A stretch of DNA of 64,000 bases, taken from NCBI GenBank assembly GCA_028698215.1, contig JAQVDY010000009.1:1-64000 (forward strand), given 5' to 3'. The position numbers and the translations under genes are program-made. The first letter of the stretch is position 1, and the number at the start of each line of letters is the position of its first letter. Of the stretch, positions 51,279-63,216 are shown piece after piece. The notes under the pieces were generated by a model. The model worked only from the letters and a program-made list of their open reading frames with translations, did not search any database and was not told where the DNA came from. The DNA is from Actinomycetota bacterium. Its GTDB lineage: Bacteria > Actinomycetota > Humimicrobiia > Humimicrobiales > Humimicrobiaceae.

Positions 51279-51330
51279 TTAAATTGTTATTAGTGTTAAT
51301 AGTTTAATTGAAAATTAAATAAGTCAACTT

Positions 51331-51411
51331 TAGTAATAGAGGCTAAGACCTGCAATTCGCAATTTGGGCACCTAGAATTGCAGGGAGCCAGTGGTGCAAC
51401 CGGCTATTACT
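51331..51411 (+). ncRNA. c-di-GMP-II riboswitch aptamer
   Basis: P1 is an 8-bp perfect helix (51332-51339 with 51404-51411). Within it GGCT (51341-51344) pairs with AGCC (51386-51389) and a 10-bp perfect helix joins 51349-51358 with 51375-51384. The loop GCACC (51368-51372) forms a pseudoknot with GGTGC (51393-51397). The conserved strings TTTGGGCAC and GTGCAACCGG match the class II cyclic di-GMP aptamer as I remember it from Clostridium. The ligand is assigned from this match. Confidence 0.87.
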
Positions 51412-51440
51412 CTTTTTCTTTCTAATATAAAAAGATAATT

Positions 51441-51488: not shown

Positions 51489-52235
51489 ATGAAAACTAAA
51501 TTTAATAAAAAACTAAGTGCAGTAATAGTAATGATAGCAGTGGCGGTTTTGTTTGCATCGTCGTTTGCCATTACCAGTTTTACTGATAAAGCAAAGGTTA
51601 ATAACCTGGCCCAGGACAGCAGCACTTATGTGGCAGGCTTAAGCCAGGGCCAGCAGGTACAGGCCTTAAGAGCTGAATATGTTAATGATGGGCAAAGCCA
51701 GGCTGAAACTATTATGGCTAATTTGGGCCAGAATATTGATCAATATGCAGTTAAGGCCAAACAGCAGGATGCCAATGTAAAGGGCAGCAGCGAAGGCACC
51801 AGCTTGCCTGCTGCGGTTCAAAACACTGTGCAGCCGGCTAACCTGAATTCCTATGAGCAGCAAGTGCTGGATTCGATAAATAATATAAGGGCAGCCAATG
51901 GTTTAGGGCCCCTTGCTGCATCCCAGACTTTAACCAATATAGCCAGGTCCAGGAGTGCAGACATGCTGTCCAGGGGATACTTTTCCCATTATACTCCGGA
52001 AGGCTTGAACATATTTAACATACTTAAGAGTAATGGTATTTCTTACCGAAATGCAGGGGAAAACCTGGCTCATTCCCAACCCGCCTCTGCCGGCACACCC
52101 CAGGCCTTTGCTGATGCCTGGATGAACAGCCCTACACATAGGGCCAATATATTAAGGGGAGAATATGGCCAAATAGGTATCGGGCTGGCTGAAAATGGGG
52201 GAAGAAGAGTAGTTACCACTGTATTTATGAATTAA
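51489..52235 (+). CDS. Secreted CAP-domain (SCP/PR1-like) protein under riboswitch control
   Basis: 248 residues. Signal peptide: KKL, then a hydrophobic stretch (about residues 11-30). A low-complexity Gln/Ala/Ser-rich spacer is followed by a CAP domain from about residue 125 (EQQVLDSINNIRAANGL), with MLSRGYFSHYTPEG, the GENLAHS motif and SPTHRANILRGEYGQIGIG carrying the cavity histidines. Family roles range from wall and matrix binding to lipid binding. Under the riboswitch it is probably expressed when c-di-GMP is low, that is in motile rather than sessile cells. Confidence 0.92.
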   Translation: MKTKFNKKLSAVIVMIAVAVLFASSFAITSFTDKAKVNNLAQDSSTYVAGLSQGQQVQALRAEYVNDGQSQAETIMANLGQNIDQYAVKAKQQDANVKGSSEGTSLPAAVQNTVQPANLNSYEQQVLDSINNIRAANGLGPLAASQTLTNIARSRSADMLSRGYFSHYTPEGLNIFNILKSNGISYRNAGENLAHSQPASAGTPQAFADAWMNSPTHRANILRGEYGQIGIGLAENGGRRVVTTVFMN

Positions 52236-56431: not shown

Positions 56432-56779
56432 ATGGCAGAACCAAGCCAGAAACTGGTGATTATATGGTCCAGCGCAGACCGTGAAGTAGCCAAGGAAATG
56501 GTGTTTATGTATGGCTATAATTCTAAGAAAAACGGGTGGTGGGAGGATATCACCCTTATTGTATGGGGCCCTGCTACCGATTTATTGAGCCAGGACTATG
56601 AGCTGCAGGAGTACATATTTAAGATTAAGGAAGCTGGAATTAAGCTGGAAGCCTGCAAAACCTGTGCGGATGACTATGGGGTAGCATCCAGGCTTAATTC
56701 GCTGGGTATTGAGGTTAAATACATGGGGGAGCCCTTAACCCAGTATCTTAAGGAAGGCAGAAAGATACTAACTTTTTAG
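56432..56779 (+). CDS. DsrE-like family protein
   Basis: 115 residues. KLVIIWSSADREVAKEMVFMYG and ITLIVWGPATDLL followed by YIFKIKEAGIKLEACKTCADDYGV match the DsrE/DsrF-like fold. Cys residues in EACKTCADD are where sulfur-carrying members keep their cysteine. Possible sulfur-transfer protein; the next gene on the same strand is a disulfide-reductase-like flavoprotein, but 355 bases separate them. Confidence 0.8.
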   Translation: MAEPSQKLVIIWSSADREVAKEMVFMYGYNSKKNGWWEDITLIVWGPATDLLSQDYELQEYIFKIKEAGIKLEACKTCADDYGVASRLNSLGIEVKYMGEPLTQYLKEGRKILTF

Positions 56780-57134: not shown

Positions 57135-58478
57135 ATGGAGCAAAAAGAAATAGTTGTAGTGGGGGGAAGTGCTGCCGGGCTTACCGCAGCCATTACTGCC
57201 CGGAGGTTTTATCCCCATAAAAGCATACTGATGATAAGGAAGGAGGAAAAAGTCCTTATACCTTGCGGAATACCCTATATCTACGGCACGGTAGGCACCC
57301 CGGATAAAAATCTTATACCGGATGCAGCTTTAGAGAAAAATAATATTGAACTGCTGCTGGATGAGGTTAAGGATATAGATAAGGGCCAAAAAACTATACA
57401 TTTGGCCTCCGGGGACCAGGTAGGTTATGAAAAACTTATTTTAGCTACCGGGTCTGAACCTGTAGTACCCCCTATTGCTGGAGTAGACAAGGAAAATGTG
57501 TTTGCTGTCTGGAAGGATGTCTCTTATTTGAATAATTTGCTGGATAAGGTAAACCAAGCCCGTAATATTGTGATTATTGGCGGAGGTTTTATTGGTATGG
57601 AATTTGCTGATGAATGCAGAAAAAATAGGGAGGTAAACATAACGGTGGTAGAAATGCTTCCCCATTGCCTGATGCTGGTATTTGAGCAGGAACTGTGCCG
57701 GAAGGCAGAAGAGATAGTCAGGTCTAGCGGAGTAAAGGTTTTAACTGGAGAAAAGGTAGAGGCTATTACGGGACAGGATAGGGCTGAAGGTGTAAAGTTA
57801 GCCAGCGGCCAGGTAATTGATGCTGATATGGTTTTAATAGGCATAGGGGCTAAAGCTAACGTAGGGCTGGCCCAAAAAGCGGGTATTAAAATAAGTGCTG
57901 CTGGAACTATTGAAGTAGACAGGTATATGCAGACCAAGACCAGTGATATATTTGCCGCGGGAGACTGCTGCCAGAAATTGTCTTTCTTTACCCAGAAGCC
58001 TTCCAATTTGATGCTGGCTTCAGTGGCTACCTATGAAGCCAGGATAGCAGGGGCAAACCTATATAAAAAGCATAGGGTAAACCAGGGAGTTATCGGAGCA
58101 TTTTCCACGGTAATAGGGGATACTGCTTTTGCCAGGGCTGGTTTATCAGTTAAGGAAGCGGAAGAAAATGGCTATGAAGTAGTGGTTGGATCTGCCGAGG
58201 GGCCTAACCGGCATCCAGGCTGTATGCCCGGGGGCAGCAACCTTCAGGTTAACCTGGTATTTGAAAAAGGAACACGGAAAATAATTGGAGGCCAGGTAAA
58301 TGGGGCCAAATCAGGGGGAGAGCTGATTAATTTGGTTAGTGCTTGTATCTCTACTGGTATGATTGCCGATGATATCAGTACTTTCCAGATGGGTACACAT
58401 CCTGCTCTTACTGCTTCCCCGGTAGCTTACCAGATGAGTAATGCTGCTGAAATGGCTGTAAAACAGCTTAATTTATAA
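57135..58478 (+). CDS. CoA-disulfide reductase / NADH oxidase-type flavoprotein
   Basis: 447 residues. FAD-binding VVVGGSAAGLTAAI at the N-terminus, a single redox Cys44 in LIPCGIPY, the NAD(P)H fold VIIGGGFIGMEFA, and the second FAD motif IFAAGDCCQ. The single-cysteine layout fits CoA-disulfide, polysulfide or peroxide-reducing members rather than two-cysteine disulfide reductases. AAGGAG precedes the ATG. Substrate undecided; sulfur or oxygen detoxification is plausible in an anaerobe. Confidence 0.88.
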   Translation: MEQKEIVVVGGSAAGLTAAITARRFYPHKSILMIRKEEKVLIPCGIPYIYGTVGTPDKNLIPDAALEKNNIELLLDEVKDIDKGQKTIHLASGDQVGYEKLILATGSEPVVPPIAGVDKENVFAVWKDVSYLNNLLDKVNQARNIVIIGGGFIGMEFADECRKNREVNITVVEMLPHCLMLVFEQELCRKAEEIVRSSGVKVLTGEKVEAITGQDRAEGVKLASGQVIDADMVLIGIGAKANVGLAQKAGIKISAAGTIEVDRYMQTKTSDIFAAGDCCQKLSFFTQKPSNLMLASVATYEARIAGANLYKKHRVNQGVIGAFSTVIGDTAFARAGLSVKEAEENGYEVVVGSAEGPNRHPGCMPGGSNLQVNLVFEKGTRKIIGGQVNGAKSGGELINLVSACISTGMIADDISTFQMGTHPALTASPVAYQMSNAAEMAVKQLNL

Positions 58479-58609: not shown

Positions 58610-59059
58610 ATGCTAAAGGAATTAAAGGAATTTATATTGAGGGGAAGCGTGATGGACCTGGCAGTGGGTATAGTAATCGGGGCTGCTTTTACTGCCATTG
58701 TCAATTCCCTGGTAAATGATATATTGATGCCTTTTATAGGCTGGCTGCTGGGTGGAAGGGATTTTAGCAACTTGTTTGCAGTGCTGAGACAGGGAAGTAG
58801 CCCTGGACCTTATGGTACGCTGGCTGAGGCTGCAGAAGCAGGTGCAATAACTATCAATTATGGTTTGTTTATAAACAGCATCATCATATTCATAATTGTA
58901 GCCGTAACCTTGTTTTTTATCATAAAGGGTATAAACAGCTTAAGGCGAAAGGAAGAAAAAGAACCCAGCCAGGAAACCAGCAAGAAATGCCCTTATTGCC
59001 AGAGCGTTATAAATATTGAAGCGGTTAGATGTCCTAACTGTACTTCAGACCTGTCATAA
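58610..59059 (+). CDS. mscL: Large-conductance mechanosensitive channel with C-terminal zinc ribbon
   Basis: 149 residues. MscL core: LKEFILRGSVMDLAVGIVIGAAFTAIV (first pore helix) and IIIFIIVAVTLFFIIKGIN (second). The cytoplasmic bundle is replaced or extended by a zinc ribbon with CPYC and CPNC (residues 127-143). It opens under membrane tension to release solutes on osmotic downshock. It is followed by a small coiled-coil protein and the heliorhodopsin on the same strand. Zinc-ribbon MscL variants are known in monoderms; the ribbon's role is not. Confidence 0.93.
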   Translation: MLKELKEFILRGSVMDLAVGIVIGAAFTAIVNSLVNDILMPFIGWLLGGRDFSNLFAVLRQGSSPGPYGTLAEAAEAGAITINYGLFINSIIIFIIVAVTLFFIIKGINSLRRKEEKEPSQETSKKCPYCQSVINIEAVRCPNCTSDLS

Positions 59060-59131: not shown

Positions 59132-59341
59132 ATGAATAAAGATAATAATAACTTGGAGCTGCTGCAGGAACATGTATACGAATGGGAAGAAGAAGTAGAC
59201 TCGCTTAAAGAGGAATTAAATAGTTCAGAGGACGAGCTGAGGAAAAAGTTTAGCAAGCGCATAAAAGAACTGGAAAGTAAGATAAAGAACGCTAGAAAAA
59301 AGATTTCAAGCCAGGAAAAAAAAGAAAGCCGCCAGCAATAA
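59132..59341 (+). CDS. Small charged coiled-coil protein
   Basis: 69 residues, GAAAAGG before the ATG. Almost every residue is charged or polar; heptads run from about residue 15 to 60 (YEWEEEVDSLKEELNSSEDE, then FSKRIKELESKIKNARKKIS). Acidic first half, basic second half. No membrane helix or known domain. Located 72 bases after mscL and 84 before the heliorhodopsin gene. Confidence 0.75.
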   Translation: MNKDNNNLELLQEHVYEWEEEVDSLKEELNSSEDELRKKFSKRIKELESKIKNARKKISSQEKKESRQQ

Positions 59342-59425: not shown

Positions 59426-60220
59426 ATGCAGAATCCAGCTTCCAAAATCACCTTTAGGTATCTCCGCGGTTTTAACGGGGCCATGGCTGCCCTGCATTTT
59501 ATTCAGGCAGTATTGATGCTGGTAATGGGGCTAACTATTACCAATATCAAGGATTTCAAGCTTCCCTTTACTGTATCCTTTCTTACTTATGACACCAATA
59601 TGGGCAGGCTGGTTTCCGATACCAATAACATAGGTAATATTCCCATAGGGGCTATGGTTTCCATCTTTTTATTTATGTCGGCTATTGCTCATTTTCTGGT
59701 GGTGCTTCCCAAGATCAACATTTCCTATAACCGTAACCTGGAGAGGGGAATAAATTATTTCAGATGGTTTGAGTATGCTTTAAGTTCTTCAGTTATGATT
59801 GTAATTATTGCTATGCTGTTCGGGGTGTATGATGTGGGAAGCATTATATTAATCATTGGGCTTAATGCCACTATGAACTTGTGCGGCCTAATGATGGAGA
59901 TACATAATCAAACTACGGCCAAAACCAATTGGACCGGCTTTATAGTGGGCAGCTTTGCTGGAGTTTTCCCCTGGATTATAATCCTGATGTACTTTTTAGG
60001 AGGTGGCAATTACAGCCAGATACCATGGTTTGTATATGCCATATTTGGCTCCTATTTTGTATTCTTTAACCTGTTTCCCATTAATATGGTGCTGCAGTAC
60101 AAGAAGGTAGGAAAGTGGAAGGACTATCTTTACGGGGAACGGGGCTATATCATATTGAGCCTGGTGGCTAAAACCCTACTGGCCTGGCTGGTTTTTGCCG
60201 GAACCATGCAGCCGCAATAA
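59426..60220 (+). CDS. Heliorhodopsin
   Basis: 264 residues, seven membrane helices. The family is recognised from FRWFEYALSSSVMI (counterion Glu116 in the third helix), GLNATMNLCGLMME, the QIPWFVYAIFGSYF stretch, NMVLQYKKVGKWKDYLYGER and LSLVAKTLLAWLVFAGT, with the Schiff-base lysine Lys249. His24 and His89 match the conserved cytoplasmic-side histidines. Heliorhodopsins are inverted, bind all-trans retinal and do not usually pump ions; a sensory or enzyme-regulating role is proposed. No retinal or carotenoid gene is in the window. AGGGAGGGG precedes the ATG. Confidence 0.95.
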   Translation: MQNPASKITFRYLRGFNGAMAALHFIQAVLMLVMGLTITNIKDFKLPFTVSFLTYDTNMGRLVSDTNNIGNIPIGAMVSIFLFMSAIAHFLVVLPKINISYNRNLERGINYFRWFEYALSSSVMIVIIAMLFGVYDVGSIILIIGLNATMNLCGLMMEIHNQTTAKTNWTGFIVGSFAGVFPWIIILMYFLGGGNYSQIPWFVYAIFGSYFVFFNLFPINMVLQYKKVGKWKDYLYGERGYIILSLVAKTLLAWLVFAGTMQPQ

Positions 60221-60248: not shown

Positions 60249-60276
60249 TTGCCATTGATTTTGATAAGTATATAAT
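60249..60276 (+). promoter_or_regulatory. Promoter before the ABC exporter genes
   Basis: TTGCCA at 60249 and TATAAT at 60271 with a 16-bp spacer, 43 bases before the ATPase start. The exporter can therefore be transcribed independently of the heliorhodopsin gene. Confidence 0.65.
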
Positions 60277-60318: not shown

Positions 60319-61305
60319 ATGTCTGAAAATATTATTGAAGTAGAAGGTTTATCTAAAAGCTTTGGGAAGATAAAAGCGGTAGACAATATTTCCTTTGAGG
60401 TTAAAAAAGGGGAAATATTTGGTTTTTTGGGTCCCAATGGAGCGGGCAAAACTACTACCATAAACATCATCTGTACCCTGCTTAATAAAAGCCAGGGCAA
60501 GGTTACTCTTTGCGGCCTGGATGTAGATAAACACCGCAATAAGATAAGGGGCTGCATAGGGCTGGTTTTTCAGGATCCCAGCCTGGATGACCGGTTAACT
60601 GCTACCGAAAACCTTTATTTTCATGCCCTGCTCTATAATGTAGCCCGGAAGGAGATCAGGGAAAGGATGGACCAGGTGTTGGAGATGGTTAATTTAAGCA
60701 GCCGCAGAAATGATCTGGTAAGGACTTTTTCCGGGGGTATGAGAAGAAGGCTGGAGATAGCACGGGGCTTGATGCATTACCCTAAAGTCCTGTTTTTAGA
60801 TGAGCCTACTTTGGGTTTGGACCCCCAGACCAGAAACCGGATATGGGACTACATTATTGATTTAAAAAAGAAAACGGATATAACTATTTTCCTAACCACC
60901 CATTATATGGATGAGACTGAGATATGTGACCGCATAGCCATTATAGATTATGGGAAAATTATTGCCTTAGATACCCCTGAACATTTAAAAAACAGCATAG
61001 GAGGGGATATTATAAGTGTAAGCTCTGCCCATAATGAAAGGCTGGCTGAATTTATAAAAACAGAACTGGGCCAGGATATTGAGTTTGGAGCTGAAGGCCA
61101 GATAAAGTTTGAAGTAAAGGAAAGCTCCAGTTTTGTACCTGATTTTATAAAAAGCAGCCCGGTAGAAATCCTATCTATCAGCGCCCGCAAACCTACCTTA
61201 AATGATGTTTTTTTGCATTTGACCGGGAGGGAGATAAGGGAAGAGACCTTAAGCAGCAAAGATGAATTTAGGTTAAGGGCCAGAAACAGGATGAGACATC
61301 GGTAA
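60319..61305 (+). CDS. ABC exporter ATP-binding protein (DrrA-like)
   Basis: 328 residues. Walker A GPNGAGKTTT, Q-loop, signature FSGGMRRRLEIA, Walker B VLFLDEPTLGLD and switch His in LTTHYMDE. The ~90-residue C-terminal extension fits the DrrA/NodI-type drug or lipid exporters. It pairs with the permease 12 bases downstream. Substrate unknown. Confidence 0.92.
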   Translation: MSENIIEVEGLSKSFGKIKAVDNISFEVKKGEIFGFLGPNGAGKTTTINIICTLLNKSQGKVTLCGLDVDKHRNKIRGCIGLVFQDPSLDDRLTATENLYFHALLYNVARKEIRERMDQVLEMVNLSSRRNDLVRTFSGGMRRRLEIARGLMHYPKVLFLDEPTLGLDPQTRNRIWDYIIDLKKKTDITIFLTTHYMDETEICDRIAIIDYGKIIALDTPEHLKNSIGGDIISVSSAHNERLAEFIKTELGQDIEFGAEGQIKFEVKESSSFVPDFIKSSPVEILSISARKPTLNDVFLHLTGREIREETLSSKDEFRLRARNRMRHR

Positions 61306-61317
61306 AGGGATTTGTTT

Positions 61318-62088
61318 ATGAAAAAAGAGCTGGCAGGAATTTACACTATTTGGCTAAGGGATATTAAAAGATACTACCGGGATAAACCCCGTATTATTGG
61401 ATCTTTTGCCCAGCCCATACTGTTTTTGGTGGTCCTGGGAAGTGGTTTGGCCAGCTCCTTTGCTTTCTTTGGCAGCAGCCGGGGCGGGGACTACCTTGAT
61501 TTTATGTTTCCCGGAATAGTCGGAATGACGGTGCTGTTTACTTCTTTTTTTGGGACCATGTCCATAGTATGGGACCGGGAATTTGGGTTTTTGAAGGAAA
61601 TGCTGGTATCGCCGGTGTCCCGGGTATCTATTGTAATCGGCAAAATCCTAGGCAGCTCCACCATCGCCTTAATACAGGGGGCTATCATATTGTTGTTTTC
61701 CCCCTTGCTTAGCCGCAGCCTTACTGTATTGTCGGTAGTCAAGTCCTTTGGCCTTATGTTTCTGGTCGCAGTCGCCATTTCTTCCATGGGCATACTTTTG
61801 GCTTCTGTAGTGAAAACCATGCAGGGTTTCCAGGTCATTACCAACTTTTTATTGATGCCCATGTTCTTTTTATCCGGAGCCATATTCCCCCTAATTGAAG
61901 CTCCCCAGTGGATGATTTTTTTATCCAGGATAAATCCCTTAACTTATGGCATTGATGCCATAAGGTATGTGATGCTCCAGGATATATCCATGCAGGTATT
62001 TCCATTATGGATAAATATTGTAGTGCTTCTTTCCCTTACTGCTGCCGCCAGTGTATCCGGTGCTTTTCTGTTTAACCGCCAGCAGTAG
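61318..62088 (+). CDS. ABC-2 type exporter permease
   Basis: 256 residues from the ATG at 61318 (AAAGGGA seven bases upstream; a TTG at 61312 is possible). Six membrane helices and the ABC-2 motif NFLLMPMFFLSGAIFPL with INPLTYGIDAIRY, typical of DrrB-like permeases. Works with the ATPase upstream. Confidence 0.92.
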   Translation: MKKELAGIYTIWLRDIKRYYRDKPRIIGSFAQPILFLVVLGSGLASSFAFFGSSRGGDYLDFMFPGIVGMTVLFTSFFGTMSIVWDREFGFLKEMLVSPVSRVSIVIGKILGSSTIALIQGAIILLFSPLLSRSLTVLSVVKSFGLMFLVAVAISSMGILLASVVKTMQGFQVITNFLLMPMFFLSGAIFPLIEAPQWMIFLSRINPLTYGIDAIRYVMLQDISMQVFPLWINIVVLLSLTAAASVSGAFLFNRQQ

Positions 62089-62241: not shown

Positions 62242-63216
62242 ATGCGTTATATCAATTTAGGCAAAACAGATATCAAGGTTTCAGTGATAGGTTTTGGGGC
62301 CTGGGCCATAGGGGGATGGATGTGGGGTGGTACCGACCACCAGCAGTCAGTAAGGGCAGTAGAGGCAGCCATTGATGCCGGCATCAACCTAATTGATACT
62401 GCTCCTGCTTATGGGCAGGGGCTTTCTGAGCAGATAGTAGGGCAGGCCATAAAAGGCAAGAGGGACCAGGTAATTATTGCTACCAAATGCGGCCTGGTAT
62501 GGAATGTAGAGAGAGGGGAGCACTTTTTTGATTATCAATCAGGCCAGCAGGTTTATAAATATTTAGGGCCGGAGTCTATCCGGTATGAAATTGACTTAAG
62601 CTTAAAGCGGCTGGGTATAGACCATATTGACTTATACCAGACTCACTGGCAGGATACGAGCACTCCCATTGAAGAAACCATGGGTACATTAATGGAGCTA
62701 AAGAAAGAGGGTAAAATCAGGGCTATTGGGGCCAGTAATGCTACCTTAGATCAGCTAAAACAGTATGACCAATATGGCCAGCTGGATGTAGACCAGGAAA
62801 AGTACAGCTTGATTGATACTGCGGTAGAAGAAGAAGTCCTGCCCTGGTGCCAGGAAAATAAGGTTACTATGCTGGCTTACAGCCCCATAGGACAGGGACT
62901 GCTTACTGGGAAACTGGATCCGGACCGTGAATTTGAAGGTGATGATTTGAGAAAAGGCAACCCCAGGTTCAGTGCTAAAAATAGGAAGATGATGCAGGAT
63001 ATACTGAACCTTTATTTTAAGCCTATTGCTGATAAATACGGCCTGTCGCTTACCCAGCTTTCAGTAGCAACTCTGGTTTCCCAAGAAAATGTTATAGCTT
63101 TGTGCGGGGCCAGAAGCCAGCAGCAGGTAGAGGAAAATGCCCGGGCAGGAGAGCCGGTAATTGAACCGGAAGATATTGCTGCTGTCAGGCAGGCTTTATC
63201 TGATGTGGATATTTAA
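62242..63216 (+). CDS. Aldo/keto reductase
   Basis: 324 residues. Catalytic Asp and Tyr in NLIDTAPAYGQGLSE, Lys in IIATKCGL and His in LYQTHWQD; NADP-binding tail with ALCGARSQQQVEENA. (beta/alpha)8 barrel, similar to the YajO/general-stress-protein-69-like group. Acts on an unknown aldehyde or ketone. GGGGGAGAG precedes the ATG. Confidence 0.92.
   Translation: MRYINLGKTDIKVSVIGFGAWAIGGWMWGGTDHQQSVRAVEAAIDAGINLIDTAPAYGQGLSEQIVGQAIKGKRDQVIIATKCGLVWNVERGEHFFDYQSGQQVYKYLGPESIRYEIDLSLKRLGIDHIDLYQTHWQDTSTPIEETMGTLMELKKEGKIRAIGASNATLDQLKQYDQYGQLDVDQEKYSLIDTAVEEEVLPWCQENKVTMLAYSPIGQGLLTGKLDPDREFEGDDLRKGNPRFSAKNRKMMQDILNLYFKPIADKYGLSLTQLSVATLVSQENVIALCGARSQQQVEENARAGEPVIEPEDIAAVRQALSDVDI

Follow-up and report, generated by a model that had tools for sequence, protein, structure and literature searches.

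What does a heliorhodopsin (HeR) do in a bacterium that looks anaerobic, from where would it obtain its retinal, and with which proteins would it act? Known heliorhodopsins bind retinal, and to our knowledge the function of most of them is still not known. These questions are raised by a gene near the end of the window, the 64,000-nucleotide stretch of Actinomycetota DNA analysed here, for which a heliorhodopsin had been proposed beside genes for the channel MscL and an ABC exporter.

Heliorhodopsin identity and distribution

The open reading frame (59426..60220, + strand, 264 aa) starts with ATG, preceded by GGGAGGGG, and its coordinates agree with those of the original prediction. Family models place the protein firmly among the heliorhodopsins (Pfam PF18761, 327.1 bits against a cut-off of 26.7, E 7e-98; NCBIfam NF038020, 318 bits against a cut-off of 100), and among solved structures TaHeR is the best sequence match (6is6, E 1.6e-69). 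The predicted fold agrees: the AlphaFold model (pLDDT 88.5) has ten PDB matches below 1e-12, every one a heliorhodopsin, with TM scores of 0.86-0.94 for these ten best matches when normalised by target. Other rhodopsins follow only at about 3e-3, and no unrelated seven-helix family provides a better match.

The nearest solved heliorhodopsins stand at TM 0.93-0.94, and this range includes TaHeR from Thermoplasmatales (PDB 6is6/7u55), which is 48-49% identical in structural alignment and shares the residues of the retinal site, but comes from an archaeal host and lacks six additional residues found here at the end of helix 1. The retinal lysine K249 lies in SLVAK, the SxxxK motif of helix 7 (S245-LVA-K249), and the counterion E116 and the histidines H24 and H89 align with TaHeR; all four residues, named correctly in the original prediction, are invariant in two alignments of 14 and 28 sequences. 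The seven helices of the model span residues 10-37, 74-93, 111-131, 137-163, 170-192, 201-225, and 234-260. In a charge count made on the sequence with helix boundaries taken from the model, the N-terminus and loops 2-3, 4-5, and 6-7 carry a net charge of about +9 and the opposite side about -1, so that the positive-inside rule predicts an inverted topology with the N-terminus inside. Furthermore, dN/dS against the nearest (sister) species is 0.053, resembling the 0.04-0.11 of the adjoining genes, which indicates that the protein is under purifying selection. The locus is thus confirmed, from sequence and model, as a genuine heliorhodopsin gene with an intact retinal site.

In a tree of 112 heliorhodopsins, those of the host's family form one clade (support 98), which joins Lokiarchaeota (95) inside a mainly Bacillota/Mycoplasmatota clade (99) and lies away from the remaining heliorhodopsins sampled in Actinomycetota. 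The gene is patchily distributed, being present in 15 of the 35 family genomes, and as its tree mostly groups the sequences by genus, it has probably been lost within the family. A mis-binned contig is an unlikely source of the gene, as two same-genus genomes share its neighbourhood and the tree keeps the family together. In the same tree, three heliorhodopsins labelled Spirochaetota (L094, L096, L097) form one clade (100), and that of Sphaerochaeta sp. UBA6084 (L096:8001-8753) sits on a contig of 229,760 bases; with labels taken as deposited, these sequences conflict with the published view that only monoderms carry heliorhodopsins.

Gene neighbours and class II photolyase as candidate partners

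Upstream of the heliorhodopsin gene lie genes for MscL with a C-terminal zinc-ribbon, CPYC-x10-CPNC (58610..59059, +; PF01741, 140 bits), and for a 69-aa coiled-coil protein (59132..59341, +), which is 59% identical in the related genome G002 and weakly resembles the sll1863 stress-response family (NF052504, 25.8 bits, E 9e-6, below the cut-off of 35). Downstream, a DrrA-type ABC ATPase (60319..61305, +; TIGR01188, 335.9 bits, cut-off 312) and a DrrB-type ABC-2 permease (61312..62088, +; TIGR01247, 239 bits, cut-off 223), both above their NCBIfam cut-offs, are followed by an aldo-keto reductase (AKR; 62242..63216, +; PF00248) that adjoins the exporter in the host genome (G000), G001, and G002. 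Farther upstream are a DsrE-like protein (56432..56779, +; PF02635, 27.3 bits) and an FAD/NAD disulfide reductase of the CoA-disulfide reductase/NADH oxidase kind (57135..58478, +; PF07992; TIGR03385, 252 bits, below the cut-off of 579). Elsewhere in the window, a c-di-GMP-II riboswitch (51329-51414, +, 75 bits) precedes a gene for a CAP/SCP-like protein of 248 aa (51489-52235).

The neighbours are therefore present as originally described, but the membrane-state or export role that their tandem order had been taken to suggest finds weak backing. The full order of reductase, MscL, coiled-coil protein, HeR, DrrA, DrrB, and AKR is common to G000 and G002 only, the sole two genomes in which HeR has MscL and the coiled-coil gene beside it, whereas the neighbours differ in G003 and in other genera. 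The stretch from MscL to the exporter was accordingly rejected as a functional operon, being weakly conserved. In G001, HeR and the exporter are on separate contigs. A 115-base segment of the HeR 3' flank recurs at the end of the contig with the exporter and there leads into the exporter, while the HeR contig itself runs on into an integrase-bearing element. Read together, these contig ends indicate that the two were probably adjacent in G001, 425 bp apart. The element (L024:3483-3933, L157:6306-6420) carries three integrase-like genes just downstream of HeR, the first of them a Phage_integrase in Pfam, and suggests a strain-variable insertion, the flank also existing joined directly to the exporter.

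We regard it as unlikely that HeR regulates the adjoining DrrAB-type exporter in response to light, on the model of OcHeR and OmrDE (PMC11109279). The exporter lies on the same strand after a gap of 98 bp, the order HeR, exporter, AKR is kept in G002 and apparently also in G001, and a Bacillota locus (L086) likewise has HeR followed by a DrrA/ABC-2 pair. However, OmrDE, although its genes also adjoin a heliorhodopsin gene, is a type I half-exporter pair located upstream, whereas DrrAB is an ABC-2 exporter located downstream. Within the family, moreover, exporter orthologues (at least 59% identity) occur in 14 of 35 genomes, equally often with HeR (6/15) and without it (8/20; odds ratio 1.0), and in G013, G017, and G018 HeR and exporter are on different contigs. 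Between HeR and the exporter lies the top-scoring promoter-like site of the region, TTGCCA-16-TATAAT (60249..60276, +; score 11/12), in a region where promoter-like and terminator-like counts are close to chance; its TATAAT recurs at a similar place upstream of the exporter in three species (G000, G001, G002), so the exporter is probably transcribed separately.

It is similarly improbable that HeR signals through unlinked or nearby sensory proteins of the PAS or histidine kinase type, a mode of action that has been suggested for heliorhodopsins at large. Two-component genes are over-represented near heliorhodopsins (PMC8612252), and a PAS_10 protein is encoded divergently from HeR in G001, with a similar open reading frame nearby in G002; yet no PAS or kinase gene adjoins HeR in the window, and among the wider collection of HeR loci nothing matches the G001 PAS gene. 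A joint role with MscL and the coiled-coil protein in membrane or osmotic stress is highly unlikely, for although their order is kept in two species and the coiled-coil protein faintly recalls a stress-protein family, MscL lies within 8 kb of HeR in only one of 80 other loci (at 5 kb), and gaps of 72-98 bp with separate -10-like elements shared with G002 disfavour a single transcript.

A different partner emerges from gene co-occurrence. DNA photolyase, taken as an indicator of a light-exposed life, was searched for in the 35 family genomes and found in nine, all of which carry HeR (9/15 with HeR vs 0/20 without; Fisher p 7e-5). Among the most complete genomes the counts are 6/7 and 0/8 (p 0.0014). 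As the genomes are not independent, the fair values are those by genus, with photolyase in 5/8 genera with HeR and 0/7 without (p 0.019, or 0.051 without the G017 fragment), and support at this level is modest. Genus g13 includes two species with both genes and a third, 98% complete, with neither. Six HeR-bearing genomes yielded no photolyase match; five of these are 67-88% complete or 6% contaminated, and the sixth, G026, is 94% complete. The host's own photolyase is an intact class II CPD enzyme (TIGR00591, 556 bits, cut-off 550) on contig C5 of G000. In all eight family genomes examined, including the host, HeR and photolyase are on different contigs, and no shared operon was found among these eight.

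Beyond the family, nine of 80 related public loci (954 kb in all) have a class II photolyase no more than 8 kb from HeR, where a density of one copy per 2 Mb would give about 0.5 (P 2e-9), and in six of the nine it lies within 200 bp, one pair overlapping. Five of the nine loci are from Acholeplasmataceae, leaving about five independent cases, and one is from Lokiarchaeota, whose photolyase groups with those of the family (support 100/100) in a tree that, outside the family, sampled HeR-linked photolyases only. In a Bacilli MAG (L117:1055-3159), the genes for heliorhodopsin and class II photolyase run in the same direction with an overlap of about 33 bp and form a candidate translationally coupled pair.

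The association of photolyase with HeR is thus much stronger than that of the neighbouring genes. It also has a biochemical precedent: TfHeR of Trichococcus flocculiformis binds class II CPD photolyase, raises repair about threefold, and extends it to green light (Shim et al., PMC9769723). The host resembles that system in having both genes in one genome, but differs from it in that its photolyase is unlinked and a candidate partner. Taken together, co-occurrence, co-localisation, and this precedent rank photolyase above the adjacent exporter as the partner of HeR. The main caveat is that exposure to light could by itself account for the co-occurrence, with no contact between the proteins. The new element here is the co-occurrence of HeR and class II photolyase, together with their shared grouping with Lokiarchaeota.

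A probably anaerobic host and the source of retinal

The host belongs to the Ca. Calidifonticultor/Humimicrobiia group of Actinomycetota; NCBI taxonomy places the genus Ca. Calidifonticultor within Ca. Humimicrobiia. Its genome, 98% complete, consists of 63 contigs totalling 1.78 Mb. Single-family searches, on which all gene absences reported for this genome are based, found neither haem-copper oxidase (COX1) nor cytochrome bd oxidase in it or in 14 HeR-bearing relatives, whereas control genomes matched. The host therefore looks anaerobic, judged by its missing oxidases, and the anaerobic lifestyle first suggested from the window now has genome-wide backing. The accompanying view that a light sensor is unexpected in an anaerobe did not hold, because many Clostridia are among the heliorhodopsin-bearing matches and published precedents exist in Bathyarchaeota (PMC7110647) and in strict anaerobes (Bulzu 2021, PMC8612252). 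The latter include the MORN-heliorhodopsins of strictly anaerobic Bacillota, from which the present protein differs in having neither MORN repeats nor any fused domain.

The original prediction had also pointed out that the window holds no gene for retinal synthesis, and a search of the whole genome for blh/brp and carotenoid genes extends this statement to every known route. No phytoene synthase was found in the host or in 17 other HeR genomes (seven controls positive), and no BCD/Blh for beta-carotene cleavage in the host, in a search validated over 397 Actinomycetota genomes with 25 matches. An alternative route via a carotenoid-cleavage oxygenase of the RPE65/CCO family was dropped, as no match was found in the host genome (two controls positive). 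Known retinal synthesis requires oxygen and carotenoids, and the question of its source is sharp in a host that shows neither oxygen use nor carotenoids.

The host is not exceptional in this respect. BCD occurs in only 11 of 110 HeR-bearing Actinomycetota genomes, and its lack is the rule among them. Phytoene synthase is missing in 11 of 15 related genomes tested, six of them belonging to named strains in culture, all from anaerobic genera (Clostridium frigoris, C. lacusfryxellense, [Clostridium] fimetarium, Parasporobacterium, Anaerobium, and Fusibacter); matches were obtained in Alkalibacterium, Halolactibacillus, and Proteiniclasticum. Heliorhodopsins in retinal-auxotrophic hosts have already been published: the host of TaHeR likewise cannot make retinal, and an outside source has been proposed for it (PMC9385722). 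Aurantimicrobium is a known case of retinal made endogenously in the absence of blh (PMC7734400). Given the missing oxidases, phytoene synthase, and carotenoid and beta-carotene oxygenases, the host is best read as an anaerobe that scavenges retinal, which would be the simplest explanation.

As a side observation, at four loci (L026, L029, L031, and L037 in G027, G024, G017, and G016, respectively) a family-2 glycosyltransferase gene lies 13-118 bp downstream of the heliorhodopsin gene, joined at three of them by one for a CrtO-like (PF18927) glycosyl-diaponeurosporenoate acyltransferase; these four genomes, from three genera, have no phytoene synthase. In one of them (L029:526-1329, G024), the heliorhodopsin frame is broken by a single TAA, possibly marking a pseudogene or an assembly error.

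Two alternatives to scavenging deserve mention. The first keeps the unlinked photolyase as partner in a strict anaerobe, but supposes an oxygen-independent route to retinal or another chromophore and a transfer of the pair between Humimicrobiia and Lokiarchaeota; we consider it improbable. The second, that HeR works without retinal, as an apoprotein or with another chromophore, starts from the argument that a carotenoid-less anaerobe would seldom meet retinal, and accords with the missing synthesis genes in the host and the frequent lack of phytoene synthase in its relatives. It is nevertheless quite improbable, because known heliorhodopsins bind retinal and, if this one did not, there would be no easy explanation for the invariance of its retinal lysine, counterion, and pocket histidines.

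A proposed light sensor in a light-damage package

We therefore favour, at a probability of roughly 0.5, a functional heliorhodopsin that uses scavenged retinal and forms part of a light-damage package, its likeliest partner being class II CPD photolyase. HeR would be inserted with its N-terminus inside and, in a cell with no known synthesis route, would bind retinal from outside. Absorption of light may then alter the activity of cytoplasmic partners through direct contact, the likeliest being the photolyase encoded elsewhere in the genome; we infer the scavenging, the light response, and the physical contact alike. Since closely related anaerobes with and without HeR are at hand in this family, partners can be tested by co-occurrence and not by neighbourhood alone, and this test favours class II photolyase and disfavours the adjacent exporter. 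The pair would thus represent a light-damage package retained by the light-exposed members of an anaerobic Actinomycetota family.
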